Assembly (NCBI RefSeq): GCF_009711405.1
Contig: NZ_SMLW01000677.1
Coordinates: 1-64,000, forward strand
Direction: 5' to 3'
Length of the DNA stretch: 64,000 nucleotides
Origin: Fulvivirga kasyanovii
Lineage (GTDB): Bacteria > Bacteroidota > Bacteroidia > Cytophagales > Cyclobacteriaceae
Numbering within the stretch: the stretch's first letter is position 1; each line of letters begins with the position of its first letter. This document shows, piece by piece, positions 4,289 to 29,749 of this stretch. A program made the translations under genes and the position numbers. The notes under the pieces are model-generated. The model made no database searches. It was not told where the DNA came from and was given only the letters and a program-made list of their open reading frames with translations.

Positions 4289-4452
4289 AATGATAATATT
4301 TAGTGTGATGAAAATTTGCATGGCTACATTTTGCAGCATCTATGGCCCAAATTGTGAATAACTTGAGAATCATTTTGTTAAGGGATTTGTAATAATTGTT
4401 AATGAGATGTTAAAGAATAGTAGTCCATCTCACTTTTTAGTATTTTCAGGTA

Positions 4453-5721: not shown

Positions 5722-6412
5722 AAAGAAGATACTATTCGTTGAAGATGACAAAAACCTGGGCTTTGTTGTTCAGGATAACCTGTCGCTGAAAGGTTATGAC
5801 GTGGTTAGGTGCTATGATGGCGAGGAGGGCTTGCAGAGCTACAAAAAGGGGCAGTTTGACCTTTGCATACTTGATGTTATGCTACCGAAAAAGGACGGCT
5901 TTACCCTTGCCAGGCAGATACGGTCAACAGATACTGACATTCCTATACTTTTTCTTACCGCCAAGTCTATGCAGGACGATAAGCTTGAAGGCTTCAGGAC
6001 GGGTGCCGATGACTATATCGTTAAACCATTTAGCATGGATGAGCTGGTTTGCCGGATAGAGGTCTTTCTTAAAAGAAGCCGCACAACCAAAGAAGTGACA
6101 CGGGAGCTTCCTCATATTTTTAATGTCGGCCTGTACACTTTTGATTATAACAACCTTACCCTGACCGGCAACAATTCAAGTAAAGTACTTACCCAGAAAG
6201 AAGCCGATGTGCTGCGTTGCTTCTGCAATAATTTAGGTATAGTTATCAGAAGAGAGGAGATACTCAAAGAAGTGTGGGGAGACGACGATTACTTTTTAGG
6301 GCGTAGCATGGACGTCTTCATATCAAAACTCAGGAAGTACCTTTCCGGTGACCCTTCCATTGAAATAGTGAATTATCATGGCATAGGCTTCAAGCTCAAT
6401 TTAAAAGCCTGA
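5714..6412 (+). CDS. OmpR-family response regulator, RprY-like
   Basis: A 232-residue regulator. The receiver domain (about residues 5-118) has the acidic pair ED(D)10-12, the phosphoacceptor Asp54 in LDVMLP, the switch Thr in LTAKS and Lys in VKPF. A winged-helix Trans_reg_C domain (about 140-230) follows, recognisable from LTQKEADVLRCFC and GRSMDVFISKLRKYLSGDPSIEI. It overlaps the kinase gene by 8 bases, so the pair is co-translated. It binds DNA as the output of that kinase. Its targets are not evident; the next gene downstream is the TonB receptor at 6530, in the same direction after 117 bases. Confidence 0.94.
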   Translation: MAEKKILFVEDDKNLGFVVQDNLSLKGYDVVRCYDGEEGLQSYKKGQFDLCILDVMLPKKDGFTLARQIRSTDTDIPILFLTAKSMQDDKLEGFRTGADDYIVKPFSMDELVCRIEVFLKRSRTTKEVTRELPHIFNVGLYTFDYNNLTLTGNNSSKVLTQKEADVLRCFCNNLGIVIRREEILKEVWGDDDYFLGRSMDVFISKLRKYLSGDPSIEIVNYHGIGFKLNLKA

Positions 6413-6529
6413 GGGCGCATATTTGTTAAAATTTTTTTGAATGATCGTTATTACAGACTAACTTCATAAAGTTGGCTAATAACATTTATTTCATTAATCC
6501 TTAACAATTGCAAACCTAACCAAATAACC

Positions 6530-11690: not shown

Positions 11691-12923
11691 CTAAATATCT
11701 ATTTCCACCTGATTTCTCAATATATCGTCCATCGTCTCCCTTTCCCTGATCAGGTGTGCTTTACCCTCATAAATCAGTACCTCAGCCGGACGATACCTGG
11801 AATTGTAGTTAGATGACATACTAAAACCATAAGCTCCGGCATTTTTGATAGCCAGAATATCACCCTCACGAACCTCGTTGAGTTTTCTGTCCCAGCCGAA
11901 AGTGTCTGTTTCGCAGATGTATCCGACAATTGTATACACCCTCTGTGTCCCTTTAGCGTTAGAAATGTTTACGATCTCATGGTAAGCATCGTACATCATA
12001 GGGCGTAGCAGGTGGTTCATGCCTGAGTCCACACCTACAAAAACCGTTGCAGGGGTTGTTTTGATCACATTGGCCTTTACCAGGAAATAGCCAGACTCGC
12101 TAACCAGGTATTTGCCTGGCTCAAACCACATTTCCAGTTTTCTGCCATAGCTTTCGCAAAACTTGTCAAACGACTTGCCAAGCTTTACACCCAGATCATA
12201 AACATTGGTAGTAATATCATTTTCTTTGTAGCCGACTTTAAAGCCGCTGCCAAAATCAATAAATTCCAGATTAGGAAAGTCACGGGCCACACCGTAAAGT
12301 ATATCGGCAATCTTTAAAAACACTTCTGCATCCAGTATATCTGACCCCGTGTGCATATGAAGACCGATCACATCAATATTGTTCGTCTTGATTACCCTCA
12401 GCAAATGAGGTAACTGATATATAGAGATACCAAACTTGGAGTCCACATGCCCTGTAGATATTTTAGAGTTACCACCCGCCATAATGTGTGGGTTCAGCCT
12501 TATGCAGCATGGGACACTGTTGTGGTACTTATGACCGAACTGCTCCAGTATTGAGATGTTGTCAATATTGATGGTCAGGCCCATTTCCACACCCTGCTGA
12601 ATCTCTTCAAATGAAACACAGTTTGGTGTGAAAAGAATATCGCCAGGCTCAAAACCCGCCTTAAGCGCCAGCTTGGCTTCCTGTACCGATACCACGTCTA
12701 CCCCGGCGCCATGCTTTTTCATTAATTTAAGTATAGAAATATTGGTCAACGCTTTAGCGGCATACTTTATCTTTATCTTTTGATTGCTAAAAGCATTCTT
12801 TAGCGTAGTTAGCTGATCGATGATCTTGTTGGCATCATAAACGTATACAGGTGAGCCAAACTCCTTAACCACTTTGTTAAGATCGACACCTTGTATCTGA
12901 TAAGCGTTGTTTTTTATTTCCAT
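11691..12923 (-). CDS. lysA: Diaminopimelate decarboxylase
   Basis: A 410-residue PLP enzyme that makes L-lysine from meso-diaminopimelate, the last step of lysine synthesis. The PLP lysine lies in KYAAKAL, the barrel glycine-rich loop in EFIDFGSGF, and the substrate-binding region in GYICETDTFGWDRKL followed by GAYGFSMSSNYNSR. The CETDTFGWDR variant in place of the more usual CESGD is common in Bacteroidota. Length fits the family. It stands alone; no other lysine genes are beside it. Confidence 0.95.
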   Translation of the reverse strand: MEIKNNAYQIQGVDLNKVVKEFGSPVYVYDANKIIDQLTTLKNAFSNQKIKIKYAAKALTNISILKLMKKHGAGVDVVSVQEAKLALKAGFEPGDILFTPNCVSFEEIQQGVEMGLTINIDNISILEQFGHKYHNSVPCCIRLNPHIMAGGNSKISTGHVDSKFGISIYQLPHLLRVIKTNNIDVIGLHMHTGSDILDAEVFLKIADILYGVARDFPNLEFIDFGSGFKVGYKENDITTNVYDLGVKLGKSFDKFCESYGRKLEMWFEPGKYLVSESGYFLVKANVIKTTPATVFVGVDSGMNHLLRPMMYDAYHEIVNISNAKGTQRVYTIVGYICETDTFGWDRKLNEVREGDILAIKNAGAYGFSMSSNYNSRYRPAEVLIYEGKAHLIRERETMDDILRNQVEIDI

Positions 12924-13890: not shown

Positions 13891-14007
13891 ACATGCGAAT
13901 ATTATAACTAAACCAAATTGAAATATAACTAATTCTGATACATGAAGTTTCAATTCTAATTTATTATGGTTTAATTTGCTGCCTTAAAATTGTTTATAGT
14001 GGCTAAA

Positions 14008-17000
14008 ATGGTTTTAAGGCAAGCTCTCCTTGCTTTTTGTCTCTTCCTGTCTTGTACTGAATTGCTGGCAACGCACATCATCGGGGGTGACCTCACTTAC
14101 AAGTGCGTAGGGTCCAAGAGATATAAGATAATCCTAACGGTATACACAGAGTGTGGCTCTGAGGCTATACTGGAACAAAAATATCCCATCCAATATTACG
14201 CAACTGATCTCGGCATTGAGGCTAGCAACCCTTTGGTATTTGAAGTTTTCAAAGTATCAACGCAAGAGGTTCAGCTCTTTTGCGAAGGATATATTACCAA
14301 CTGTGCCGGTGGTTCGCATAGAGGAGTGGAGAAAGTAGTGTATGAGGGAACGGTGAACCTTAGCAGCCATAGCCTGAGCGAAGATTGGAGGTTTTTTTGG
14401 AAACGAGCTGCCAGAAGTGAAGAAATTAAAACATTAGTACTACCTGAAGCCGAAGACTTTTTTATTGAGGCCTCTATTAATAATAAGCTGGCCTCTTGTA
14501 ACCAATCCGTGGTTTTTGAAGGTTCTGCAGTTGCAACAGTTTGTATAAACCAGAGCCAGACATTTAACAACTTGGCTACTGACCCCGATGGCGACCAACT
14601 AAAATTCACTCTTGAAACACCTAAGAGTAACTATGATACTGATGTAGTGTTTAGCGATGGCTACAATGCCACAAATTTTATGGCTTTTTCAGGTACTCCT
14701 GTGCTTAATGCTAGCAGTGGTGACCTGACCATTAACCCTACACTGTTGATAACAGGCATCACGGATTTCAAAGTTGAGGAATTCAGAAATGGGCAATCTA
14801 TAGGCTGGGTAAAAAGAGGAATACAGCTTACAAGTATAGATTGCAGTAATGCTATACCGGTGATCTCTGACTTTAAAACTATTAACAGTGAAACAGTTAA
14901 TATATGTGCAGGGGAGACCATAAATCTTGAATTTGATGTTGAAGATGCCGACAATGAGAACATTTTGGTTACTCTGGTAGATGGCCCTGCCGGTATCTTT
15001 TCAGTATTAAACAATAACTCACGGTCCCCAACCGGCCGCATTTTATGGCATACCGGTTATGCTGATGCAGGAGTTTATAATGTTGTAGTCCAGGCGAGTG
15101 ATAAAAAATGTCCGCAGCCCGGGGTAGCCGTAAAAACATTTGTTCTAAATGTAAGATCAAGCCCTCAGTTTAGTTTGGGTGGTTATCAGGTTATTGCCTG
15201 TGATGAGATCCTCGAACTGAAGCCAACGGTAACAGGAGGAGATGGTAACTATACCTATTTATGGAGCGACGGCTCTACCGGCTCTACTAATATTGTAGGG
15301 GTAGGCTCGCACTCCCTGAAGGTTACTGATGGCACCGGCTGCTCGTACACCAGCTCGACGTATATAAACGATGAGCTTTTTGCAAATTTTGATGTTTCAC
15401 CCCGATGTATAGGTATGCCTGCAGAATTCACCGATCAGTCCTACCATCAGAACTCCTCAAAGGACATCGTAAGCTGGTCATGGGATTTCGGAGATGGCAA
15501 CACCTCTACCGAGCAAAATCCTGAACACACCTATGCCGTGGCAGGAAATTATGAAGTGACACTTGAAATCACCGATAATGGTGCTGTGCCTTGTTCCGAA
15601 TCCATCACCAAAGATATTACCATATGTGACCCGCCACCATTCAACTTTACACTCGATGGACACTGTACATATTCTCCGGTTACATTGCAGGCAATATTTG
15701 CAGGTATTAATGAATGTACCTTTATGCAGACTCTGGTTTATGATTTTGGAGATGGTACAGTTCAAACCTGCGACCTTGCATCACTTCCTCCATGTATTAA
15801 TGTGCAGCATGTTTATAATGTGGCCGGCACTTACAATGTATCTGTAACTGCCTTAAGCCTAAGCGGATGTGAAAATACAATCACCAAATCCATTAAGATA
15901 GACCCCAGTCCGGAGGTAAATATTATTCAGGATAATTTCTACCTGATTTGCAGCAAGCCCGACTCCCTGCTGGAAACTGAAATTCTTGCAGGAGGGACCG
16001 GAGCTATCGCATACCAATGGAACACGAATGAAACTACCGAAGATATTAACATCAATAGTTCAGGGTATTATACTGTAACAGCTACTGATATCGTAGGCTG
16101 TTCTTTGTCTGATGACGTAATGGTAACCTACCCGTTATCAGCGCATTTCAGGTACGATCCATATTGTAAGCCTGGTGATATTGTTAATTTTTATGCCAAT
16201 GCAGTCTCACTGACCAATACAGTCACCAGCTATACCTGGAACTTCGATGATCCCGGTTCCGGAACAGCTAACACTTCTGCTGATATAAATCCTCAACATG
16301 AGTTTTCGCAGGAAGGAGACTATAATGTGAGGCTGGAGGTAGAAGACTCTGACGGTTGTTATCGCAATTTTGTATGGCCTGTTTATAATACCTCTATAGA
16401 TAACCACTTTGAGATCAACCCGTCCGAAGAGGTCTGCCAGGGCGGACAAGTTACTGGCACGGGGCCTTCGGGAAGTCATGTTGACAGCTACGTGTGGAAC
16501 TTTGGCGATGGTTATGGGTACGGCAAAATATCTCCACATTTTTACAATTCAGCCGGTGACTTTGATATTAACCTCAGAGTGGATTACAATAACAATAGCC
16601 TGGCCAATGGATACTGTACAAGCGAATTTAATGAAGATATTTCGGTTAATGCGCGTCCTGCGGTTCAGATAAAAGCCTCGCAAGATCGGTTTTGTATGTA
16701 TCAGCCCATCACCTTTGAGGTAGAAACAGAATCGGACATACAAGCTGTCGAATGGGAAGTGACCAATCTTCGGAAAGGTACAACAATCACATCCAATGAA
16801 ATCTTTTTTACACATCAGTTTACGGAAAGAGCAGAATACAAGGTTGAGTTATCCGCCACCGATATTAATGGTTGTACCTCCTATAGCTCAATGAGCGGAT
16901 TTGCTGCCAGGGTTGTAATTCCTGATTTTAATTTCGAAACCTTATGCGCAAAGGAAATCTTAACATTTGAGGAGGCATTTCGTGATACACTCGAAAATAT

Positions 17001-17937
17001 AACAGATTACAGATGGGACTTTGGTGACGGCACTACTCAGGAAGGCCCAGTGCCTATACCGGTCACCACCCATGCTTTTGAAAAGGGAGGTGTATACCCC
17101 GTTACTTTAACGGTTATCAACAGCTTCTCCGGTTGCGGGAACAGCAAAACGAAAATGGTGACTGTGATTAAAGCCCCGGTTATAGATTTTAGCTACGATA
17201 CCATTTGCGCCAGGTCAGCGATGTCATTCACCAATCTTACCACCGAGGGGGAAGGGTCAATAGAAAGCTACACATGGCAGTTTCCGGATGGGTCAACGGC
17301 CAACACCAAAGATGTCAGCTTTTACTTCGAAGAACCAGGAAACTTCCCGGTAAGCCTGATCGCTACTTCATCCTTAGGGTGTGCCGATACCCTTACCCAA
17401 TCGGTTTATGTAAAGCCGTCACCTGTTGCGGGTGTTGAAATACCAGTTCCGTTTGTTGAAGCTTATATTCCCGTGCAATTCTACGATGATTCCGAGGGGG
17501 ATATTATTTCTTACTATTGGGATTTTGGAGATGGTACCACCACCACGGAGCGGGATCCGATCCATACTTATAATGCTATAGAAAAGTACCCGCTGACCCA
17601 TGTGGTAACCAATGGCTACAATTGTTCTGATACGTTGAATTTGCCTCTTGACCTTAATGTATACCTTGACCTGCCAACTGCTTTTTCTCCTAATGACGAT
17701 GGTCAGAATGACCAGTTACGCCTGGTGCAGCAGGGCATAAAAACTTTATACACCTATAAAATATTCAACAGGCACGGCCAAGAGGTCTTCAATGCTTTGG
17801 GCGATGTGCAGGCGCTCTGGGATGGTACCTATAATGGTCGTCCTCAGCCTTCCGGGGTATATGTCGCTCATGTTAAAGCTACGGGAGCCTATGGCAAAGA
17901 GTTTAATTTCAAAAGAAACGTAACACTACTACGATGA
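14008..17937 (+). CDS. Giant secreted PKD-repeat protein with T9SS type B (CHU_C) sorting domain
   Basis: A 1309-residue protein with a signal peptide (ends ELLATHIIGGDLTYKC). At least six PKD-like modules are visible through their W/YxFGDG or WNF-type motifs (for example WDFGDGNTSTEQNPEHTY and WDFGDGTTTTERDPIHTY). The last ~90 residues carry FSPNDDGQNDQL, FNRHGQEVF, WDGTYNGRPQPSGVYV and KRNVTLLR, the gliding motility-associated C-terminal domain used by the type IX secretion system. It is expected to be secreted across the outer membrane and to act as an adhesin. I start at ATG 14008; GTG 13999 is an alternative. Its stop overlaps the PorP/SprF gene by 4 bases (ATGA). Confidence 0.92.
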   Translation: MVLRQALLAFCLFLSCTELLATHIIGGDLTYKCVGSKRYKIILTVYTECGSEAILEQKYPIQYYATDLGIEASNPLVFEVFKVSTQEVQLFCEGYITNCAGGSHRGVEKVVYEGTVNLSSHSLSEDWRFFWKRAARSEEIKTLVLPEAEDFFIEASINNKLASCNQSVVFEGSAVATVCINQSQTFNNLATDPDGDQLKFTLETPKSNYDTDVVFSDGYNATNFMAFSGTPVLNASSGDLTINPTLLITGITDFKVEEFRNGQSIGWVKRGIQLTSIDCSNAIPVISDFKTINSETVNICAGETINLEFDVEDADNENILVTLVDGPAGIFSVLNNNSRSPTGRILWHTGYADAGVYNVVVQASDKKCPQPGVAVKTFVLNVRSSPQFSLGGYQVIACDEILELKPTVTGGDGNYTYLWSDGSTGSTNIVGVGSHSLKVTDGTGCSYTSSTYINDELFANFDVSPRCIGMPAEFTDQSYHQNSSKDIVSWSWDFGDGNTSTEQNPEHTYAVAGNYEVTLEITDNGAVPCSESITKDITICDPPPFNFTLDGHCTYSPVTLQAIFAGINECTFMQTLVYDFGDGTVQTCDLASLPPCINVQHVYNVAGTYNVSVTALSLSGCENTITKSIKIDPSPEVNIIQDNFYLICSKPDSLLETEILAGGTGAIAYQWNTNETTEDININSSGYYTVTATDIVGCSLSDDVMVTYPLSAHFRYDPYCKPGDIVNFYANAVSLTNTVTSYTWNFDDPGSGTANTSADINPQHEFSQEGDYNVRLEVEDSDGCYRNFVWPVYNTSIDNHFEINPSEEVCQGGQVTGTGPSGSHVDSYVWNFGDGYGYGKISPHFYNSAGDFDINLRVDYNNNSLANGYCTSEFNEDISVNARPAVQIKASQDRFCMYQPITFEVETESDIQAVEWEVTNLRKGTTITSNEIFFTHQFTERAEYKVELSATDINGCTSYSSMSGFAARVVIPDFNFETLCAKEILTFEEAFRDTLENITDYRWDFGDGTTQEGPVPIPVTTHAFEKGGVYPVTLTVINSFSGCGNSKTKMVTVIKAPVIDFSYDTICARSAMSFTNLTTEGEGSIESYTWQFPDGSTANTKDVSFYFEEPGNFPVSLIATSSLGCADTLTQSVYVKPSPVAGVEIPVPFVEAYIPVQFYDDSEGDIISYYWDFGDGTTTTERDPIHTYNAIEKYPLTHVVTNGYNCSDTLNLPLDLNVYLDLPTAFSPNDDGQNDQLRLVQQGIKTLYTYKIFNRHGQEVFNALGDVQALWDGTYNGRPQPSGVYVAHVKATGAYGKEFNFKRNVTLLR

Positions 17938-18968
17938 GAAGACTGATTTTCATAATCCTCGTGTTACTTTCTCTGGGAGCAAAGGCACAAATCCAGGATG
18001 TTAAATTTTCGCAGTTCTTTAACTTTCCTCTCAATATAAACCCTGCGGCAACAGGAAATATCACCGAGACATACAGGGTTGCAGGTATTTACAGGCAACA
18101 ATGGAGCAGCATAAATGCTGAATTTGTGACTTTCGGGATTTCAGGTGATGTTCGTTTTAATAAAGGATTTAGGCCAGGAGACTCCTTTGGAGTTGGTTTG
18201 TACGCCATAGATGATCATCTGGGCGACAATATTATGCAAAATCAGGAGATTGGCCTGAACCTCGCTTATCATTTTCCACTGGATTTTCAGGCCCGTCATA
18301 TTATTTCTGCCGGTGCAGGGTTTAGCTATGCCATCAGCTCGGTTAATATTGATAAGTTGATATTTGAAAGCCAGTATCAGGGTTTTGTTTATGATGTAAA
18401 TGTTCCTCACGGCGAGCCATTTACCAGTGACCAACAGGCCAACTATGATGTAAATGCAGGTATCTCATATACATTTTTGATCAATCCGAAATGGCAGACC
18501 TCCATAGGAGCAGGTTTGCAAAATATTATCGACCCTCAGGAAGGCTTTTTTAGTGATTCCCTGGCCCGCGTCGGAATGAAGCGAAAAGTGCTTTCTGGCA
18601 GCGTAAAATACAAAGTTAATAACCGTCTTGCCCTGGTTCCGCGCTGGCTGGCCACCATGGAGCAGCAAGCCACCGAAATAAGTACAGGAGTGGTTGCGGA
18701 ATATGATATTTTCCCTGATAAAGATTTGCAGCTCGATTTGGGGCTATTTGGTCAATGGTCAGAATATGCCACTATTTATGCAGGTGCCGCTATCAAAGGT
18801 GTGGAGGTACACGCTAGCTATGACTTTGCTATTTCCGGACTTAAAAATCTGGCATCAGCAGATGAAGCGGGGCAGGGCTCCCCGGGTGTTTTTGAGCTGT
18901 CACTCATTTACCGGGGAAGGACAAAAAAGAATACAGGCAGTTACATTATTCCTTGCAGAACATTTTAG
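17934..18968 (+). CDS. PorP/SprF-family outer-membrane protein, partner of the upstream type B substrate
   Basis: A 344-residue beta-barrel protein with signal peptide MRRLIFIILVLLSLGAKAQ. The opening QDVKFSQFFNFPLNINPAATG is the signature of PorP/SprF (Bac_PorP_SprF), and the rest shows alternating amphipathic strands with GVGLYAIDDHLGDN. SprF-like proteins are needed in Flavobacterium for secretion or attachment of particular type B T9SS substrates. The 4-base overlap with the substrate gene supports that partnership. An OmpA-family gene follows after 5 bases. Confidence 0.93.
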   Translation: MRRLIFIILVLLSLGAKAQIQDVKFSQFFNFPLNINPAATGNITETYRVAGIYRQQWSSINAEFVTFGISGDVRFNKGFRPGDSFGVGLYAIDDHLGDNIMQNQEIGLNLAYHFPLDFQARHIISAGAGFSYAISSVNIDKLIFESQYQGFVYDVNVPHGEPFTSDQQANYDVNAGISYTFLINPKWQTSIGAGLQNIIDPQEGFFSDSLARVGMKRKVLSGSVKYKVNNRLALVPRWLATMEQQATEISTGVVAEYDIFPDKDLQLDLGLFGQWSEYATIYAGAAIKGVEVHASYDFAISGLKNLASADEAGQGSPGVFELSLIYRGRTKKNTGSYIIPCRTF

Positions 18969-18973
18969 AGATC

Positions 18974-21046
18974 ATGGGAAAGAGATTATCGGTACTTGCC
19001 GTAGCACTTATATTAATTTCGATTAATACATATCAAGCCAATGCCCAGCAGGATGTGCGGGAGAAAATAGCAGATGGCAGCTACAATAAAGGAGATTTTT
19101 ATAAGGCCATACCTTTATATAAAGACATTGTAAAGCACAACCCAAAAAATATAAAGGTCTGGTATAAGTTAAGTGAAGCTTTATACAATGTGCGTAATCA
19201 CACAGAGGCAGTGGAAGCTTTCGCGGTTTTGCACAAGCTCACCGAAACGGATAAGCATTTAAAAAATGAATATTATACAGCATTCCTACATTATGGCAAT
19301 AGCTTAATGGCTGTACAGGAGTATGAGAAGGCAAAACGCATTTATCTCCAGTTTTTAAGGCTAAAGCCGGGGCATGCAGACTACCGTAGCATGAAGCGTC
19401 AGGCAAACGCAAAAATAAGAGCTTGCAAGGAGGCGGAAAGCTTACTTAGCCTGGCGTATTTGGGTGAATATGAAATAGAGCGTTTACCCAATACAGTTAA
19501 CGGCAAATATTCTGACTTTGGTCCGGTTTGGCTGGATAATCAGTCATTGCTTTTTACCTCATTGAGGTCAGATTCTGCTTTGGAAATCTCAGATAATGAA
19601 GACTTTTCACCCATAAACCAGCTTCATATTGCCAAAAAGTCAAATGGAGAATGGCAGGAAGCCGAGCTTGCAGAAAGTTTTAATCACGACTTTTTTCACA
19701 GCGCCAATGGCTCATTGTCAGCAGACGGGAAATTGTTTGCTTTTAGCATCTGTAAAGAAAATAAGGCCCATGAGATTCGCTGCGCTATATACCAGTCAAG
19801 AAAAGTCAACGGGCAATGGCAGGATCCGGTTAAGCTTGGAAAGCATATCAACAAAGCCACCTCTACTTCCACTCAACCGGCGTATGGACAGGTAAAACGC
19901 AGAGGGAATGTAACAGAGGTATTGTATTTTGTGTCCGACCGGGAAAAGGGGAGAGGCGGTATGGATATCTGGTACTCAGCAAAGGATAGAAAAGGGGACT
20001 GGAGCAAGCCGGTAAACTGCGGCAGTGCCATCAATACATCCGGAAATGAGATCACACCGTTTTATGACGATGCCTCAGGCACGCTTTATTTCAGCTCCGA
20101 TTTTCATCAGGGGTTGGGCGGCTATGACATCTTTAGTGCTTATGGAGGCTTGAAAAGCTGGCGGTCGCCAATCAATATGGGTGCATCGATCAATACCGGA
20201 TTTGACGACACTTATTTTTCATGGAGAGTGGCCGATGCCAATGGCACATTGGTTTCCAATCGTGATGGAAGCCTCTCAGTTTTTGGGAAAAACTGCTGTG
20301 ATGATATTTTTTATGTCGAAAAACACCCTGTGTTTCAACTACCAGGTATTGTTATTTCCACAGATTCCCTTCCCCTGCCTGATGCCACTGTTGGCGTAAA
20401 GCTCAAGAGTGCTGGAGAAAACCCGGACAGCCTTTTCTGGGTGACTGCCAGTAATGAAAAAGGTAGTTTTGAACTGCCTTACAGAAAAGATTTAAAGCTA
20501 GCACTAGTGGTTGCAAAAACTGGTTTTGAAACTACGGAGATGGATTTGCAGGATCAATATGGCAACTATCCTGATACTGTGGTAGTGGTTATGAAGTCGC
20601 TGACTGAGGAAAAGGAGGCATTGGACAAAATGGTGGCTCAGAAGCTGGAGGTGCTGTCAGAGCAGCGACTGGAAGGAAAAATAACAGCAGGAACAGTACT
20701 GGTTATGGAGCATATTTATTTTGAATTTGATAAAGCAGCCATTCAGCCGGAAGCCCATCAGGACCTGGACTTGTTGTTTGATTACCTGAGGCATAATCCC
20801 AAGGTGAAGATCGAAATTGCAGGCCATACAGACGGCAAAGGAGATGCCGTTCACAATCAGGAGCTTTCACAAAGGAGGGCTGATGCTATCCGGAATTATC
20901 TGATTGACAAGGGTATACATAAGCGAAGACTGACGGCCATAGGATACGGGGAAGAAAGACCCATTGCGCCTAACGAAAATCCGGATGGAAGTGATAACCC
21001 CGAAGGGCGCCGGAAGAACAGGAGAACAGAGGTAATTATACTGTAA
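18974..21046 (+). CDS. OmpA-family protein with TPR, PD40 repeats and peptidoglycan-binding domain (T9SS-associated)
   Basis: A 690-residue protein. A signal peptide (ends YQANAQ) is followed by TPR-like helices (about 40-150), WD40-like PD40 beta-propeller repeats (about 180-440; SADGKLFAFS, LYFVSDREKGRGGMDIWYS, LYFSSDFHQGLGGYDIF), a carboxypeptidase-regulatory-like Ig domain (about 465-535), and an OmpA C-terminal domain with YFEFDKAAI, AGHTDGKGD and LSQRRADAIRNYL. This layout matches the PorE-type protein thought to tie T9SS to peptidoglycan, although PorE is usually a lipoprotein and this is not. ATG 18974 is chosen because it begins the signal peptide. Third gene of the T9SS operon. Confidence 0.92.
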   Translation: MGKRLSVLAVALILISINTYQANAQQDVREKIADGSYNKGDFYKAIPLYKDIVKHNPKNIKVWYKLSEALYNVRNHTEAVEAFAVLHKLTETDKHLKNEYYTAFLHYGNSLMAVQEYEKAKRIYLQFLRLKPGHADYRSMKRQANAKIRACKEAESLLSLAYLGEYEIERLPNTVNGKYSDFGPVWLDNQSLLFTSLRSDSALEISDNEDFSPINQLHIAKKSNGEWQEAELAESFNHDFFHSANGSLSADGKLFAFSICKENKAHEIRCAIYQSRKVNGQWQDPVKLGKHINKATSTSTQPAYGQVKRRGNVTEVLYFVSDREKGRGGMDIWYSAKDRKGDWSKPVNCGSAINTSGNEITPFYDDASGTLYFSSDFHQGLGGYDIFSAYGGLKSWRSPINMGASINTGFDDTYFSWRVADANGTLVSNRDGSLSVFGKNCCDDIFYVEKHPVFQLPGIVISTDSLPLPDATVGVKLKSAGENPDSLFWVTASNEKGSFELPYRKDLKLALVVAKTGFETTEMDLQDQYGNYPDTVVVVMKSLTEEKEALDKMVAQKLEVLSEQRLEGKITAGTVLVMEHIYFEFDKAAIQPEAHQDLDLLFDYLRHNPKVKIEIAGHTDGKGDAVHNQELSQRRADAIRNYLIDKGIHKRRLTAIGYGEERPIAPNENPDGSDNPEGRRKNRRTEVIIL

Positions 21047-21198
21047 AAGTCCCTCTGAAACAGGTTTTGAGGAGGCTTTTCTCTTGTAATTCTCGTTAAG
21101 TTTTACTACTTTACCAGTTCCCCCAAGAATCAATCACCATAGTGCTATCGGGAAGAAAAATCAGTAGGGGAAAATTTTACAATTTGTTGTTAATTCAT

Positions 21199-21231
21199 TT
21201 GCACTTCCACATCATGGAATGTGTATTTTTG
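21199..21231 (+). promoter_or_regulatory. Bacteroidota-type promoter for the HisA-like gene
   Basis: A TTG at 21199-21201 and a TATTTTTG at 21224-21231 fit the -33/-7 pattern TTG and TAnnTTTG of the Bacteroidota primary sigma factor. The spacer is 22 bases, slightly long. The predicted start lies about 30 bases before the ATG. Confidence 0.5.
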
Positions 21232-21267: not shown

Positions 21268-21996
21268 ATGATCCAGATAATACCTTCCATAGCGATTAAT
21301 GAAGGCAAAGTAATCAGATTACAACAGGGAGATTTTACAAAGGAGAAGGTATATGACCAAAGTCCAATTGATTTGGCCAAGACCTTTGAGGATCATGGTA
21401 TAGAAGTGGTTCACCTTGTAGACCTAGACGGAGCACGGAGAGGCCAGCCGGTCAACTATCATATACTTGAAGCTATAGCGGGATATACCGGGTTGAAAAT
21501 AGACTTTACCGGAGGTATCCATACGGACGGAGATATAAGCAAGGCCTATGAATACGGGGCCAGCTATATTACCGCTGCCAGTGTGGCGGTAAGCAGAAAA
21601 GAGCTATTCTCCTCATGGATCATCTCATACGGAAGGGAAAAGATCACATTGGGAGCAGATGCCATCAACGGCAAGATAGCTATCAGAGGGTGGCAAAAAA
21701 GCACTGATCTGGATATCATGGACCATATTGAATACTTCTATTCCAGAGGTCTGAAATATGTAAAAACCACTGATATCAGTAAGGACGGTGTGATGCAGGG
21801 CCCCGCATTTGAGCTGTACCAAAATATTATTGACAGGTTCCCCGATATTTGTGTACTGGCCAGTGGTGGCGTAAGGAATATAGACGATATCAAGCGACTT
21901 AATGACATGGGTGTTTTCGCCGTTATTTTTGGTAAAGCATTCTATGAAGGTCGTATTCAACTCAAGGAGCTGGAGCAGTTTTTGGTAAAGGCGTAA
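21268..21996 (+). CDS. HisA-family isomerase-like protein with substituted catalytic Asp
   Basis: A 242-residue TIM-barrel protein that aligns along its length with HisA, the ProFAR isomerase of histidine synthesis: GKVIRLQQGDF, HLVDLDGA, LGADAINGKIAIRGW, TDISKDGVMQGP, LASGGVRNIDDI and VIFGKAFYEGRI. In HisA the first strand reads IPAID, with Asp as general base; here it reads IPSIA, so Ala9 replaces it. The usual DFGGG and TGGS(I) are also changed to DFTGG and TAAS(V). The second acid residue (Asp in LGAD) is kept. No other his genes are nearby. It may be a paralogue with another substrate, or an inactive one. The family is certain; the activity is doubtful. Confidence 0.85.
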   Translation: MIQIIPSIAINEGKVIRLQQGDFTKEKVYDQSPIDLAKTFEDHGIEVVHLVDLDGARRGQPVNYHILEAIAGYTGLKIDFTGGIHTDGDISKAYEYGASYITAASVAVSRKELFSSWIISYGREKITLGADAINGKIAIRGWQKSTDLDIMDHIEYFYSRGLKYVKTTDISKDGVMQGPAFELYQNIIDRFPDICVLASGGVRNIDDIKRLNDMGVFAVIFGKAFYEGRIQLKELEQFLVKA

Positions 21997-22171: not shown

Positions 22172-22203
22172 GAGGCCGCTTAACGTTTTAAGCGGCCTCT
22201 TTA
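22172..22203. terminator. Bidirectional terminator between the HisA-like gene and the convergent lipoprotein gene
   Basis: A perfect 12-bp stem, GAGGCCGCTTAA (22172-22183) with TTAAGCGGCCTC (22188-22199), closes a 4-base loop and is followed by four T residues. An A-rich run on the other side supplies a T tract for the minus strand. Confidence 0.9.
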
Positions 22204-22261: not shown

Positions 22262-22867
22262 TTATTGTATCTTGATATTCCATTCAAGGTCAACATCTGA
22301 TTCTCCATCCTCTGATGAAGATGTTGCCGTTTTAATATCAGGTTGGTGCTTCAACAGTATTTGGAAGGTACCAGAAGTCGGCTCATCAGTTTCCCAAACA
22401 GTCTCTAAACCGATAGGTAAGCCCTCTAAATCAGTATCCTGGTAATTAACAGGATTGTCCTGATTTCCTGCACCAATATTTCCTAAACCTGTTGGGCTTG
22501 AAAACAATGCTCCTGTCCAGCCAAAGAAGATCTGGTGCTCATGTCCTTCTTCTTCCACTTCTTCGGTAATATCTTCATTACTATCTCCTACAGTATTCTT
22601 GAAGGTTATAGACATAGAATATATAGTATTGGCTGCCAGTACAATGTCGTCTTGCTCTGCAGGTGCTGTTCCTTCGCCGTCAGGATCATTGTAAGTAAAT
22701 GATAGAGGAGTGCCTCCCGCTGCGGGGGTAAAGGTTAGCGTCACTTCATTAATTACCTCTTCTTCATTTTCAGCTTCTGGAGCGTCATCATCATCACTAC
22801 AGCTTGCCATAAAGCCCATAGTTGCAAGTAATAACAGCGCGAGAAAGTTTGATTTTAGAATTGTCAT
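22262..22867 (-). CDS. Acidic lipoprotein paired with the neighbouring TonB receptor
   Basis: A 201-residue lipoprotein with signal LLLLATMGFMASCSDDDDAPEAE. The mature part is strongly acidic and beta-rich, with a short EEEGHEHQIFFGW stretch that could bind metal. Proteins of this look often sit beside TonB receptors in Bacteroidota and are named only loosely. It follows the receptor gene in the same direction after a gap of 102 bases that holds its own promoter and a 21-bp element also found in front of the receptor. A role in presenting or sensing the receptor's substrate, perhaps a metal, is inference. Confidence 0.75.
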   Translation of the reverse strand: MTILKSNFLALLLLATMGFMASCSDDDDAPEAENEEEVINEVTLTFTPAAGGTPLSFTYNDPDGEGTAPAEQDDIVLAANTIYSMSITFKNTVGDSNEDITEEVEEEGHEHQIFFGWTGALFSSPTGLGNIGAGNQDNPVNYQDTDLEGLPIGLETVWETDEPTSGTFQILLKHQPDIKTATSSSEDGESDVDLEWNIKIQ

Positions 22868-22914
22868 ATCAGTGTTTTAAATGAAATTAAACATTTACAT
22901 ATCGTTAACTGATA

Positions 22915-22945
22915 CAAATATATTTAAATGCAACAATGATGCAAA
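22915..22945 (-). promoter_or_regulatory. Bacteroidota-type promoter for the acidic lipoprotein
   Basis: On the minus strand TTTG (22945-22942) and TATATTTG (22922-22915) are separated by exactly 19 bases, the standard -33/-7 layout. Transcription would begin near 22909, about 40 bases before the ATG at 22867. The -33 box lies inside the shared 21-bp element, so a protein bound there would block RNA polymerase. Confidence 0.7.
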
Positions 22946-22947
22946 TA
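22927..22947. promoter_or_regulatory. Operator-like element, copy 1 (TGCAAC-N3-GATGCA)
   Basis: An imperfect inverted repeat, TGCAAC AAT GATGCA, at 22929-22943, with flanks that also match copy 2 at 25409-25429: 19 of 21 bases are identical. It covers the -33 box and part of the spacer of the lipoprotein promoter. The shape and position fit a Fur/Zur-type repressor site; the regulator is not in the window. Confidence 0.6.
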
Positions 22948-22969
22948 GAAAGTGCTTTATTTTATGTTT

Positions 22970-25408
22970 TTAAAATTTATAGCGAGCGGAAATGACCATA
23001 TTAAAGCCGGTTTCATCAGCAAAATATCTTAACCGGTTGGTGTAGTCCCTGTAGGAGGCATTGAGGAGATTCTTGAACTGGACACCAAATACAAATTGAT
23101 TGAGGGTTCCTTGCAGGTTGAGGTTCATAAGCAGGTATCCGTCCGGTGCAGGCAGGAAGTCGAAGTTGGAGTTATCTTCCGCAAAGAGGTTTTCACCGTT
23201 AAGATTAGCTTCATCAATGTCGGCTACCGTTATTACGCGTGGAGCCTGATATTGCCTGAAAGTGTAGTTTGCCTCTAGAGCAGCACTAAACTCATCCAAT
23301 CCAAAGGCCTGTTTCATAAAAGAAAGTTTATAACCAAGTTTATTGGCCGGAATGCCAACAAATACGTCGTCATGGCTAACATCACGCGCCTGGAGGTAAG
23401 TACCTTGTATACGAGACTCCCAGAAGGAAGTGTGTTGAAGGATATAGCTGGCATCTAACCCGAAGAAGATGGCATCTGTTTGGTCATACACATAAAAGGG
23501 AAATGGACCCCTTACCGTTGCAGCTATACCAGCCGGTTTGGAGTAAATATAACCTTTGAGGTAGTTGACATGCGCCGTTACCTCGAGGCTGCGGCCTTTT
23601 ACCGTATGGTTAAAGGTATTTACCCATTTAAAACCCAGTTCATTATCCACCGGTCTCTGGTCCTGATCCAATACACCCTGTATACTCTCCGGAGTTCCAA
23701 ATTCGTTGGTTATATGGCGCCAAAGCCCAAAGTCAATGGTAAATTCATGCTTGCCGTAGCTGTATAGCTCGGCAATGTTCGGAGGCCTCCAGGCAGTGCC
23801 AAAATTGCTTCTGAAACTACTGTTTTTACCTAATGAAGTATTGATTCCGACCAGTCCGGTTACACTTTGATAGTTAAGGTCTTGCCTGTAAACATCGTTG
23901 TCAGCATCACGGCCTGCTACGGAGTTTGACTGATAGTCGTAACGTACACCTACTTCCAGTTCCATGTTACCTACGGGCCGCGATTCTGTAATATAGAAGC
24001 CAAACCTGCTGTTATTGTAGTTAGGAACAAAAGGGATAGTATTTGTGCCGGGGATATTATTATTGTCCTGATACAGCCATTGTGCTCCTATGGTGCCACT
24101 CCAGTCTGAGATGGGTGCATGCTTCCAGTCCAGGTCCAGTGTATGTGTGAAAAGCTCCAGGTCTATGGCAGGCCGATCATTATTGTTTCCCCGCCTTACA
24201 TCATACTCCTGCCGTGTATTGGCCTGGAAACCATATTGAAAGTCTAATTGATGGTCCTTAAAATTGTAATGTCCTTTTAGTCTGATCAGGTCATGACTTA
24301 CTTCCTGCCGCGGGTTATTGATGTTGTAGCTGAAATCTCTCGTAAAGTATGGCTCATCAGCTTTTAAGGCAAGATCGAGATCTTCCAGGTTACCCACTAC
24401 CGACCCTCGGAGTATACCCAGGTTTTGCTGTACATGGCTGTATAGCAAAGTAAGGTCGAGCTGTTTATAATGGTACCGGGTGCCGAGCATATAGCTAAAT
24501 TCACGGGCACCGGTATTGGTTAACATGTAATCGGGAGCTCTCAGGTCGCCCTGGTACAGGCCGGAAACCTGACCCATCCATGCAAAGTTTTTATATCCCT
24601 GCTGTAGCAGGAGATCTGCATTGACAGACCTGCCATTGCTTGCGGCCGTTACGCCCGCTGTTCCGTGTAAGTGGCCTGTTGACAATTCCATTTTGGGCGG
24701 ATTAATGATGATCACCCCCCCCATGGCATCCGGCCCGTATTTTACCGCAGCGGCTCCTTTAACCAGGGCAATATTGTCAGCCATGGCAGCATCTATTTCA
24801 GGTGCGTGTTCCTGGCCCCAACCTTGCCCTTCGTGCCTTACACCGTTGTTAATGATCAGCACTCTGTTGCCATGCAAGCCATGGATCATGGGTTTTACTA
24901 CATTCTGCCCTGTTTTAAGTGTAGAAACACCGGTAATATTGCTCAATACGTCACCCAGCGATTCTGTTTTAATGCTCTCCAGCTCTTTACCCGATAGCTT
25001 TGACTCTGTCATTGATTCAAGTCCTGTTTCTATTGTGCTACCCTCGATCACTATACTCTCAAGGATCATATCATTGGTAGCAAGTTTAACGATCAGGTCA
25101 GGATGGTAGATGTCATGGTGGTGAACAAAACTCTTGTACCCCAAGTGAGAAATGGAGATATCATATTCTTTTTCGCAAAGCCCTTTGATCTGAAATTCTC
25201 CGGCTTCATTGGTCATAATGCCTTTTTCAGAGTTTTTGATTTGTACGGTAGCATAAGGGATAGGCTCTTGCGTGGAGGCATCTACAACCAATCCGGAGAT
25301 GGCGCAACTGCAATCAGCGCTGCAATCCTTTTTTCCCTGAGTGAAAGCGGGGCTTGTAGAGAGCAAAAGGGCTGCAAAAATCAAAAAAGTAAATACACGA
25401 GTAAACAT
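22970..25408 (-). CDS. TonB-dependent receptor, possibly for a metal
   Basis: An 812-residue outer-membrane receptor with a signal peptide (ends SPAFTQG), a carboxypeptidase-regulatory-like domain beginning CAISGLVVDASTQEPIPYATV, then a plug (ESLGDVLSNITGVSTLKTG; ALVKGAAAVKYGPDAMGGVIIINPP) and a barrel ending MVISARYKF. Just after the signal comes a Cys-rich KDCSADCSCAI, and the first domain contains a VHHHDIYHPD cluster; both could bind metal. The plug stretch EGQGWGQEHAPEIDAA resembles receptors of the ZnuD type. ATG 25408 is preferred because a palindromic element ends right before it. Metal uptake is inference. Confidence 0.85.
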   Translation of the reverse strand: MFTRVFTFLIFAALLLSTSPAFTQGKKDCSADCSCAISGLVVDASTQEPIPYATVQIKNSEKGIMTNEAGEFQIKGLCEKEYDISISHLGYKSFVHHHDIYHPDLIVKLATNDMILESIVIEGSTIETGLESMTESKLSGKELESIKTESLGDVLSNITGVSTLKTGQNVVKPMIHGLHGNRVLIINNGVRHEGQGWGQEHAPEIDAAMADNIALVKGAAAVKYGPDAMGGVIIINPPKMELSTGHLHGTAGVTAASNGRSVNADLLLQQGYKNFAWMGQVSGLYQGDLRAPDYMLTNTGAREFSYMLGTRYHYKQLDLTLLYSHVQQNLGILRGSVVGNLEDLDLALKADEPYFTRDFSYNINNPRQEVSHDLIRLKGHYNFKDHQLDFQYGFQANTRQEYDVRRGNNNDRPAIDLELFTHTLDLDWKHAPISDWSGTIGAQWLYQDNNNIPGTNTIPFVPNYNNSRFGFYITESRPVGNMELEVGVRYDYQSNSVAGRDADNDVYRQDLNYQSVTGLVGINTSLGKNSSFRSNFGTAWRPPNIAELYSYGKHEFTIDFGLWRHITNEFGTPESIQGVLDQDQRPVDNELGFKWVNTFNHTVKGRSLEVTAHVNYLKGYIYSKPAGIAATVRGPFPFYVYDQTDAIFFGLDASYILQHTSFWESRIQGTYLQARDVSHDDVFVGIPANKLGYKLSFMKQAFGLDEFSAALEANYTFRQYQAPRVITVADIDEANLNGENLFAEDNSNFDFLPAPDGYLLMNLNLQGTLNQFVFGVQFKNLLNASYRDYTNRLRYFADETGFNMVISARYKF

Positions 25409-25429
25409 AATGCAACAAAGTTGCAAATA
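25409..25429. promoter_or_regulatory. Operator-like element, copy 2 (TGCAAC-N3-GTTGCA)
   Basis: A perfect inverted repeat with 6-bp arms, TGCAAC AAA GTTGCA, at 25411-25425, directly in front of the receptor ATG. It matches the element at 22927-22947 in 19 of 21 positions and in the same orientation relative to its gene. Binding here would cover the translation start region of the transcript's DNA, as a repressor site placed low in the promoter. Confidence 0.62.
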
Positions 25430-27316: not shown

Positions 27317-29749
27317 ATGATCGACTTTAACAGCCTTGCAGGGATTACTGCCGGAGAAATTGTTTTATCAGAATATTCCGGGGAAATCAAGTACCTTATC
27401 ACGGATAGCCGTAAATCTTTTTTTGCCGGTGGCGGGATATTTTTTGCCATTAGCGGCGAAAGGCATGATGGGCATGTTTACATTAAATCGCTTTATGATA
27501 AAGGTGTTCGCCAGTTTGTAGTGGAGAAAGACGTGGAAGCGTCTCATCTTCCGGGAAGTAACTTGCTGAAGGTTAGCAGTAGCCTGATGGCTTTGCAGGC
27601 GGTGGCGAAAGCTCATCGTGAGCAATTCAATGTAGAGGTAGTGGGCATAACCGGGAGCAATGGAAAGACTATAGTAAAGGAATGGCTCTTTCAGCTCATC
27701 GTGCCTTACAAAAGAGCGGTGAAAAATCCTCATAGTTACAATTCTCAAATTGGAGTACCACTCTCGGTCTGGCAGCTTAATGAACAACATGAGGTAGGTA
27801 TTTTTGAGGCAGGCATTTCCGTGCCTGGCGAAATGGAGAAACTGGAAGCCATCATTCAGCCTACAGTTGGCATATTTACCAACATCGGGCCGGCCCACGA
27901 TGCCGGTTTTAATTCCAGAAAGCAGAAAATACAGGAGAAAGCCCGCTTATTTCAACATACGGAGCATGTGATTTATTGTAAGGACCATGAAGAGATAGAT
28001 CAGTACCTTGCCGGTAAAGGTTTTAGCTGGGGGCATCATGTTGACAGTGATGTGCGGATAATGGATGTTGTCCACAATGAACGAGAGACTGTTGTGAATA
28101 TTAGATTTGGCTCTGATCATGTTTTCAAAATCCCGTTTATTGATAAGGCTTCAATAGAAAACTGCCTGCATTGTATTACATACATGCTGTTCAAAGGCTA
28201 CGATTCCTTATCCATCCAGGAAGGTATCAGCAAGCTTCATAAAGTGCACATGAGGCTTGAGTTAAAAAAAGCCATTCACAACAGCTATGTAATAGATGAT
28301 GTTTACAACAATGATCTTGCGGGTTTGCAGATAGCGCTTGATTTCTTATCGCATCAAAAGCAGCATGAAAGCAAATCGGTGATCATTTCCGATATACTTC
28401 AATCTGTAGCAGATCAGCAAAAATTGTATACTCAGGTTAACGAATTGCTAAAAACGGCCAACGTAACCAAAATAATAGGTATAGGGCCTGCATTGTCACG
28501 CTTTAAAAAGCTGTTTGACATGGAGGCTTACTTTTATGAAACAACGGCGGACTTTCTTAAGCAGCACGACTTTACTTCTTTCCGGGATGAGATCATCCTC
28601 GTTAAAGGTGCGCGAACTTTTGCCTTTGAAAGAATTGTAAGGACACTCGAGGAAAAGATCCATGGTACGCAATTAGAAATCAACCTTGATGCGCTAACCA
28701 ATAATCTCAATTTCTACCGGTCCCGCATGAAACCGGAGACCAGACTGATGGTGATGGTGAAGGCATTTGCTTATGGCAGTGGTAGCCTTGAGGTGGCCAA
28801 TCTTTTACAGTTTCACCGGGTTGATTATCTGGGTGTGGCCTATGCGGATGAAGGGGTTATATTGAGAAAAAATGGAATTTATCTTCCCATCATGGTAATG
28901 AACCCCAGCGAAGACAGCTTCGAAAAGCTTTATCAGTATCAACTGGAGCCTGAGGTGTACAATTTCAATATATTCAGACAGCTTATCTCTTTCCTGGGAA
29001 ACAGACCCATGAAAGTACATCTTAAGCTGGACACCGGCATGCACCGGCTTGGCTTTGAGGAAGGTGATATAGATCAATTGATTGGTTTATTACAAAAGCA
29101 CTCGAACCTTGAAGTAAAGAGCATATTCAGTCATTTGGCAGGCTCAGATGAAGCTACACATAATACTTTCTCACGAGAGCAGGCAGAAAAATTTGAAAGA
29201 CTCTCCGGCAGGATAATGCAGAATCTGCACCATAGGCCGTTAAGACATTTGGTAAACTCCCCCGGCATTGTTCGTTTTCCCGAATTCCATTATGATATGG
29301 TAAGGCTTGGCATAGGCTTATATGGCCTTGAGGCAAATAAGCTGGAACAACATCGATTGCAGCCGATCAGCAGGTTGAAAACGATTATCTCTCAAATCAA
29401 ACACATTAAAGAGGGAGAAACAGTAGGCTACAGCCGAAAAGGCCTGGCTAAGGAGGACATGCAAATTGCCACTATTGCTATTGGTTATGCCGATGGCTTC
29501 AGCCGGGCATTTAGCAACGGCGTCGGTGAAGTCTGGCTGCATGGTAAAAAAGCGCCCGTCATAGGAAACGTCTGCATGGACATGACCATGATCGACATCA
29601 CAGGCATAGATGCGTCAGAAGGAGATGAGGTTGAAGTTTTCGGAGAACATCTGACAATCATGGAAGCAGCTTCAAAGATCAATACCATTCCGTACGAAAT
29701 ACTCACCAACGTAAGCCAGCGAGTGAAGCGCGTTTATTACGTGGAGTGA
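27317..29749 (+). CDS. Bifunctional MurF (UDP-MurNAc-tripeptide:D-Ala-D-Ala ligase) / alanine racemase
   Basis: An 810-residue fusion. Residues 1-450 are a Mur ligase: N-terminal domain with ITDSRK, ATP loop GSNGKT at 113-118, NIGPAHD and GKGF. Residues 452-810 are a PLP alanine racemase: the PLP lysine is Lys482 in VKAFAYGSG, with HLKLDTGMHRLGF, FSHLAGSDE, VRLGIGLYGLE and VGYSRKG. The racemase makes D-Ala and the ligase adds D-Ala-D-Ala to the peptidoglycan precursor. This fusion is known throughout Bacteroidota, so it is a lineage marker rather than an oddity. Acts in the cytoplasm. Full length, no truncation seen. Confidence 0.95.
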   Translation: MIDFNSLAGITAGEIVLSEYSGEIKYLITDSRKSFFAGGGIFFAISGERHDGHVYIKSLYDKGVRQFVVEKDVEASHLPGSNLLKVSSSLMALQAVAKAHREQFNVEVVGITGSNGKTIVKEWLFQLIVPYKRAVKNPHSYNSQIGVPLSVWQLNEQHEVGIFEAGISVPGEMEKLEAIIQPTVGIFTNIGPAHDAGFNSRKQKIQEKARLFQHTEHVIYCKDHEEIDQYLAGKGFSWGHHVDSDVRIMDVVHNERETVVNIRFGSDHVFKIPFIDKASIENCLHCITYMLFKGYDSLSIQEGISKLHKVHMRLELKKAIHNSYVIDDVYNNDLAGLQIALDFLSHQKQHESKSVIISDILQSVADQQKLYTQVNELLKTANVTKIIGIGPALSRFKKLFDMEAYFYETTADFLKQHDFTSFRDEIILVKGARTFAFERIVRTLEEKIHGTQLEINLDALTNNLNFYRSRMKPETRLMVMVKAFAYGSGSLEVANLLQFHRVDYLGVAYADEGVILRKNGIYLPIMVMNPSEDSFEKLYQYQLEPEVYNFNIFRQLISFLGNRPMKVHLKLDTGMHRLGFEEGDIDQLIGLLQKHSNLEVKSIFSHLAGSDEATHNTFSREQAEKFERLSGRIMQNLHHRPLRHLVNSPGIVRFPEFHYDMVRLGIGLYGLEANKLEQHRLQPISRLKTIISQIKHIKEGETVGYSRKGLAKEDMQIATIAIGYADGFSRAFSNGVGEVWLHGKKAPVIGNVCMDMTMIDITGIDASEGDEVEVFGEHLTIMEAASKINTIPYEILTNVSQRVKRVYYVE

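Follow-up and report, generated by a model that had tools for sequence, protein, structure and literature searches.

A HisA-fold paralog of Cytophagales lacks the β-1 catalytic aspartate and carries an invariant β-6 lysine

The gene at positions 21,268–21,996 of the window (the 64,000-nucleotide stretch of Fulvivirga kasyanovii DNA analyzed here) encodes a HisA-fold protein that is, on balance, probably a neofunctionalized HisA: an enzyme that uses Lys166 and Asp131, works outside histidine and tryptophan synthesis, and acts on a phosphorylated, carboxylate-bearing substrate. The evidence comes from its altered active site, from the clade to which it belongs, and from its retention in relatives that have lost histidine synthesis.

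A HisA fold with an altered active site

The gene and the codons considered here are:

21268–21996, + strand: HisA-fold paralog gene (P0001), 242 amino acids (translation, Pfam, AlphaFold2 model, fold match)
21292–21294, + strand: codon 9, gcg, Ala, at the site of the HisA β-1 catalytic Asp (Asp in 0/136 clade members versus 59/59 canonical sequences)
21508–21516, + strand: codons 81–83, TGG, with the first Gly of GGG replaced and GG 82–83 intact (136-member alignment)
21577–21579, + strand: codon 104, gcc, Ala, aligned with S. enterica Gly102 at the phosphate-2 site (alignment)
21658–21660, + strand: codon 131, gat, Asp, the retained β-5 acid, aligned with S. enterica Asp129 (135/136 members)
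21763–21765, + strand: codon 166, aaa, Lys, on β-6, aligned with S. enterica Leu169 (136/136 clade members, 0/59 canonical)

The 242-residue translation product starts MIQIIPSIAINEG and matches Pfam PF00977 (His_biosynth) with 216.2 bits (cut-off 23.6). Against the NCBIfam HisA equivalog TIGR00007 it scored 216.2, below the cut-off of 228.95, a threshold exceeded by five of five canonical Bacteroidota HisA controls (235.0–268.6) and by none of five further paralogs (184.0–221.4). HisF and the AglZ/WbuZ HisF2 proteins belong to the same superfamily; equivalog scores of the paralog for HisF and AglZ/WbuZ (64.6, 73.2, and 65.8) were below the respective cut-offs (294.55, 310, and 299.7), and HisF-LUCA was 22% identical in the fold match. 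The AlphaFold2 model has a mean pLDDT of 94.4, and its closest solved folds are S. enterica HisA 5a5w and 5abt (Z 35.7, 239 residues aligned, 30% identity), with an rmsd of 1.8 to 5a5w. HisA 4gj1 was the top PDB match by sequence, and the closest named relatives of the gene are from Fulvivirga species, at no more than 92% identity.

The original prediction, made from the DNA letters alone, had placed Ala at residue 9, and the translation bears this out (codon gcg). Its altered motifs were likewise found as described (DFTGG at 79–83 and ITAASV at 101–106), as were the blocks it listed as retained (LGAD at 128–131, RGW at 140–142, and TTDISKDG at 167–174). Residue 9, the counterpart of S. enterica Asp7, is Ala in 68 of the 136 clade members, Ser in 39, Trp in 7, Thr in 7, Ile, Val, Leu, or Tyr in three each, and Pro, Phe, or Gly in one each. 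Residue 81 is mostly Thr (86) or Ser (35), with Gly in eight members and Ala in seven, while the Gly-Gly pairs at 82–83 and 200–201 are each present in 136/136. At residue 104, Ala (86) and Ser (39) predominate over Gly (9), Asp (1), and Asn (1), as compared to Gly in 59/59 canonical sequences. Residue 85 aligns with Arg83, the phosphate gripper of S. enterica HisA, a position represented in canonical HisA by Lys (30), Gln (19), Arg (9), and Ala (1), and in the clade mostly by Ser (48), His (33), and Thr (14). Trp142 is kept in 132/136 members, and the loop-6 Asp, S. enterica Asp176, corresponds to Asp173 in the window protein and is Asp in 112/136. Asp176 is given as the catalytic Asp of HisA in a portion of PMC9088769, and Asp9 and Asp169 are marked as catalytic in PriA-type enzymes in a portion of PMC5404923. 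The paralog thus resembles HisA (S. enterica 5a5w) in its fold, phosphate-site Gly-Gly pairs, Trp142, Asp131, and Asp169. In contrast to HisA, it has no Asp9, has Lys166, and carries altered GGG and xxGS motifs; it also lies outside the his operon, scores below the TIGR00007 cut-off, and is retained in some HisD-less genomes.

An Asp-less clade beside a canonical hisA

A search of the window's genome (G000; 680 contigs, completeness 100) yielded three relatives at E ≤ 1, the window gene included. The second is a HisA, 43% identical, at positions 13487–14197 of contig C605, and the third, HisF-like and 23% identical, lies beside it. The C605 HisA has the canonical motifs IPAID, DFGGG, and CGT and stands among HisB-, HisH-, HisF-, and HisIE-like ORFs (HisH and HisIE assigned by eye); the HisB, HisD, and HisF Pfam matches of the genome are also on this contig. 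A second, canonical hisA in a his operon, which the original prediction had proposed to look for, is thus present. No his gene was recognized by eye among the ORFs of the 12–32 kb region around the paralog, in agreement with the predicted isolation of the gene, and the HisA, HisF, HisB, and HisD matches fall on C605.

Loci were drawn from 58 near genomes, from GTDB contigs (80 loci), from 292 genomes of the order, and from 392 genomes of the phylum, and proteins were read for the fetched loci only. Two profiles, A1 and A2, sorted these proteins into 136 distinct paralog and 59 distinct canonical sequences, counts of distinct sequences from fetched loci that are weighted to the window's family. 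The gene was called in 79 of 81 near-set loci and, in the second set, in all but L175; it was missed in these three loci because the greedy ORF caller took overlapping frames. The seed rows of A1 and A2 were picked after residue 9 was known, and a tree with columns 9 and 166 masked served as a check on circularity; in it, 47 paralog and 45 canonical rows (a reduced set) split with support of 100/99. A tree that included outgroups (two non-Bacteroidota HisA and one HisF) recovered a single paralog clade among Bacteroidota HisA (100/100). The absence of Asp9 from all 136 members and the support in both trees establish the Asp-less form as a conserved clade, the second of the checks proposed in the original prediction to come out in its favor. 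The simplest reading is that the paralog arose by duplication within the phylum, with an exact placement that the trees support weakly.

Among the matches listed for the order genomes, family f1 has two matches per genome in 63/64 genomes, while other family codes, such as f11 and f13, have one match per genome or none; the clade is therefore not universal in the order. Outside the order, all 21 loci read were canonical with Asp9 present, and seven further regions, without that of G303, which came from a wrong place, also sorted as canonical; this reading covers the fetched, higher-scoring hits among the matches listed for the 392 phylum genomes. Among the papers listed from one open-access library, none dealt, by its title and abstract opening, with an Asp-less HisA paralog of Cytophagales, and passages of a survey of Bacteroidota his genes (PMC8305728) name extra hisH and hisF copies and no extra hisA.

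These results bear on the reading of the gene as a second, ordinary ProFAR isomerase. That reading is hardly credible: it would account for the HisA fold, Trp142, and the many retained substrate-site residues, but Asp9 is missing throughout the clade, the TIGR00007 score falls short of a cut-off that canonical relatives exceed, and the paralog is retained in some genomes from which HisD has been lost. The proposal that the gene is a paralog with a changed role rather than the ProFAR isomerase of histidine synthesis is supported by the canonical hisA elsewhere in the genome and by the Asp9-less clade.

Lys166 and laboratory variants of HisA

A scan for diagnostic residues (at least 93% in paralogs and at most 10% in canonical HisA) yielded two positions, Lys166 and Ser7 (127/136; Ala in 59/59 canonical sequences). 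Position 166 in canonical HisA is Ile in 44 sequences, Leu in nine, Phe in four, and Ala and Thr in one each. Lys166 lies within strand 164–167 of the AlphaFold2 model, which is β-6, and probably faces the pocket, judging from its alignment with S. enterica residue 169. In structure 5g2h, titled as the L169R variant of S. enterica HisA, Arg169 aligns with Lys166. The original prediction did not include this lysine, nor the retention of the clade in some HisD-less genomes.

This position has a history in the laboratory. According to parts of PMC7591586, L169R is among 16 changes that give TrpF activity, and alone it abolishes HisA activity while conferring TrpF activity; frequent extra changes occur at four positions in contact with phosphate 2 of ProFAR (80, 81, 83, and 102) and, nearby, at 79, 106, and 107. 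Across positions 79, 80, 81, 83, and 102, the clade alters the counterparts of 79, 83, and 102 (residues 81, 85, and 104), and the counterparts of 80 and 81 (GG 82–83) are unaltered. In simulations described in part of PMC9088769, Arg169 touches Asp129 and, on PRA, the carboxylate of the anthranilate, and the engineered Arg is described there as working via charge shielding and carboxylate contact. The paralog thus resembles laboratory-evolved HisA (L169R or G102A; 5g2h, 5g2w) in having a basic residue at 169 and Ala at 102, and differs in having Lys for Arg, in the additional loss of Asp9, and in a gene content that speaks against a TrpF role.

Class I aldolases have an imine-forming lysine, which offers a parallel for Lys166. 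The β-6 strand carries the defining lysine position of class I (Schiff-base) barrel enzymes, and Lys166 occupies it in 136/136 members. By this analogy, Lys166 might form an imine with a carbonyl substrate, a reading to which we assign a low probability. An invariant β-6 Lys in a phosphate-binding barrel whose β-5 acid is kept in 135/136 members is what such an enzyme would have; pairing with Asp131, however, would favor a protonated lysine, and the precedent of Arg169 in engineered HisA (charge shielding and carboxylate contact, as given in part of PMC9088769) points away from imine formation.

Retention without histidine and tryptophan synthesis

Among the matches listed, HisD (PF00815) was found in 269 of the 292 order genomes, all of at least 95% completeness, and was missing from 23, with G159, G165, and G206 assigned as HisD-less by elimination. 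Most HisD-less genomes are without both HisA forms, including 10/11 of the small-genome family f21, among the matches listed. Fourteen of the 23 have no match to the A1 profile (E ≤ 1e-30) and nine do (G040, G044, G061, G062, G088, G122, G127, G131, and G159), again among the matches listed; in all nine the match is without Asp9. A PF00977 search found no other HisA in these nine genomes among the matches listed; G040 and G127 each have a second PF00977 protein, which in both cases is HisF-like and scores under 100 bits with A1 and with A2. These two HisF-like proteins (L222 in G040 and L223 in G127) are 37–38% identical to the window genome's own HisF, and their first strands (IIPILTF and VIPTLLL) are without the Asp of the HisF motif IPCLD. 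A tenth genome, G042, whose completeness is below the sample threshold, shows the same pattern as the nine; the ten His-minus holders span six family codes (f6, f8, f9, f10, f19, and f21). G040 is only partly His-minus, as it has no HisD yet has a HisB-like domain, TrpF, and TrpC.

TrpC is missing in 9/10 His-minus holders; as for TrpF, seven have none, G159 gives a marginal match, and G040 and G062 have it. In 14 control genomes, the histidine and tryptophan marker searches were positive in 13 or 14. The occurrence of the paralog in genomes without HisD, and mostly without TrpC, sets gene content against histidine and tryptophan roles, and its retention in some His- and Trp-minus relatives suggests that it probably has a different job. 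Because the β-1 catalytic Asp is absent, the curated score falls short, and histidine-pathway genes do not consistently accompany the gene (9/23 HisD-less genomes, among the matches listed, plus G042, hold it), the paralog should not be named HisA.

We also considered whether the paralog is a TrpF (PRA isomerase) of natural origin that parallels laboratory-evolved L169R HisA, and rejected this as very unlikely. The basic residue at 169 and Ala at 102 are as in the laboratory variants, and in two f16 genomes (G150 and G135; loci L172 and L173) the paralog lies directly downstream of trpB-trpA (by eye). However, the window's genome and both f16 genomes encode their own PF00697 TrpF, which in L172 and L173 lies within 3 kb of the paralog; the paralog itself has no PF00697 match (Pfam, up to E 1) and no Asp9, and the loss of TrpC from 9/10 His-minus holders is hard to reconcile with this role.

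Genomic neighborhood

Three further features of the window concern the surroundings of the gene:

11691–12923, − strand: lysA (diaminopimelate decarboxylase; TIGR01048, 402.3 bits, cut-off 297.9)
21198–21231, + strand: candidate Bacteroidota-type promoter, TTTG-N22-TATTTTTG (motif match)
22172–22199, no strand assigned: hairpin between convergent genes, 12-bp stem and 4-nt loop (z −5.2; terminator scan)

The original prediction gave the gene its own promoter and terminator. This is borne out only in part: a promoter-like motif and a stem are present, but the motif is at chance level (2/21 upstream windows versus a mean of 1.8 in shuffles, with the L040 and L112 windows not ending at the start codon), and the hairpin scored as a terminator on the minus strand only, i.e., for the convergent gene.

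In the window, lysA is about 8.3 kb from the paralog. It lies upstream in 19/59 loci, in family codes f1, f5, f9, and f15, and is adjacent in nine of the 19; in the larger near set it is within the fetched flank in 27/81 loci. The interval in the window (13990–21046) holds a 1315-residue surface-protein-like ORF, a PorP/SprF-family protein (TIGR03519), and an OmpA/PorE-like protein, whereas lysA directly adjoins the paralog in several relatives. This recurrent linkage would fit a protein that takes part in the metabolism of lysine or diaminopimelate. Against such a role, the open steps in Echinicola are those of a transaminase and a desuccinylase, and neither chemistry is known for the HisA fold. 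Echinicola vietnamensis is presumably of the same order as the window organism. Part of PMC7311316, which presents large-scale mutant fitness data for this species, leaves its DapCE/DapL step open and names Echvi_0124 as a possible diverged DapL. Despite the linkage, the lysine role was rejected and is rated as highly improbable: the paralog is kept although lysA above cut-off is missing in 4/10 His-minus holders (lysA above cut-off was found in only 11 of the 14 controls).

No partner gene was common to all families in the neighborhoods of the fetched loci. Of the 58 loci that have the gene, 18 (17 of f1 and one of f8) carry immediately upstream of it a pair of ORFs that by eye encode a histidine kinase and a response regulator; the pair was seen in only two of eleven family codes. 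In L119, from the small genome G042, which has no His or Trp marker genes, purK and purE (by eye) follow the paralog on the same strand at about 4423–6855, the spacings being 72 and 2 bp. A purine role was rejected, since among the loci collected purK matched in only two others, at distances of about 6.6 kb (L072) and 3.8 kb (L161), and the link stays an anecdote. Downstream in the window, positions 22262–25426 hold a small lipoprotein-like ORF (no NCBIfam match) and a TonB-dependent receptor for which heme-type models scored under cut-off, and this pair recurs downstream of the paralog in relatives. An 810-residue ORF at 27317–29749, which by eye looks like MurF fused to an alanine racemase, also recurs downstream in relatives.

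Selection and conservation

Three close pairs gave a dN/dS of about 0.02 (window versus L004, dN 0.010 and dS 0.485; window versus L033, dN 0.041 and dS 2.05; L033 versus L004, dN 0.036 and dS 1.62), while most other pairs were saturated in dS and gave no ratio. At strand-end positions, a set defined by a rule of thumb from DSSP, mean entropy in the paralog was 0.94 as compared to 1.39 for the rest (permutation p 0.0002). Low dN/dS and low strand-end entropy speak for a functional site rather than a gene in decay. The corresponding values in canonical HisA were 0.61 and 1.62, such that strand ends are more variable in the paralog, and residue 9 is fairly variable among paralogs (entropy rank 53 of 234).

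Conservation of the paralog and of hisA was compared in 15 genomes with both genes, each against the window's genome. Within the genus and family, the paralog was the more conserved in 9/10 genomes (e.g., 81 versus 56% identity in G010 and 73 versus 44% in G020), with a tie in G017. Beyond the window's family, it was the less conserved in 5/5 (G038, G043, G049, G053, and G057), which at the sequence level argues for a looser constraint across families in the paralog than in HisA.

The main rival to a neofunctionalized enzyme is a non-catalytic pseudoenzyme or binding protein with the HisA fold that would sense a phosphorylated metabolite or regulate a partner, for example with the upstream two-component system. 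The catalytic Asp is gone and its position widely variable, the loop-6 Asp is relaxed (112/136), strand ends are more variable than in canonical HisA, and the kinase and regulator pair stands directly upstream in 18/58 loci. On the other hand, that pair occurs in only two of eleven family codes, and Lys166, fixed in 136/136, together with the conserved catalytic face suggests more than a plain binding pocket. We consider this rival a minority possibility, to be taken seriously but unlikely. The low dN/dS ratios, together with the conservation of the catalytic face, suggest a neofunctionalized enzyme.

Discussion

For the neofunctionalized enzyme, the following course of events may be envisaged. 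A HisA duplicate would have kept the (βα)8 barrel along with the two Gly-Gly pairs that bind phosphate and most likely gave up ProFAR isomerization. The β-1 Asp at residue 9 would have been lost and Lys166 gained on β-6, near the retained β-5 Asp131. A phosphorylated substrate would bind at the phosphate site of the C-terminal half, and Lys166, charge-paired with Asp131, may hold a carboxylate of the substrate, move a proton, or both. In this scheme the paralog is presumably catalytic, and its substrate would carry a carboxylate.

The paralog has parallels among offshoots of PriA in Actinomycetota (SubTrpF, SubHisA2, and AdeK), for which parts of PMC5404923 and PMC13055916 describe shifts in function after pathway loss or duplication. 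In those accounts the offshoots retain ProFAR or PRA isomerase activity, whereas the paralog clade belongs to Bacteroidota and has lost the β-1 Asp. The conversion of HisA to TrpF is a well-known laboratory model for new function in a duplicated enzyme. The clade is a natural, old, many-family HisA duplicate with a basic residue at 169, where the laboratory enzyme flips, and with loss of the catalytic Asp in addition.

For annotation, homology searches label the paralog HisA, so that pathway reconstructions may list one redundant enzyme too many and may score as present a histidine step that His-minus genomes do not have. More broadly, and tentatively, an ancestor shared by many Cytophagales may have turned HisA into a new enzyme class, one that uses Lys166 and Asp131 to act on a phosphorylated compound with a carboxylate or carbonyl group and that is kept in some reduced genomes without histidine, tryptophan, and sometimes lysine synthesis. 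The paralog may be the sign of a step of metabolism that has so far gone undescribed in a large group of environmental bacteria.
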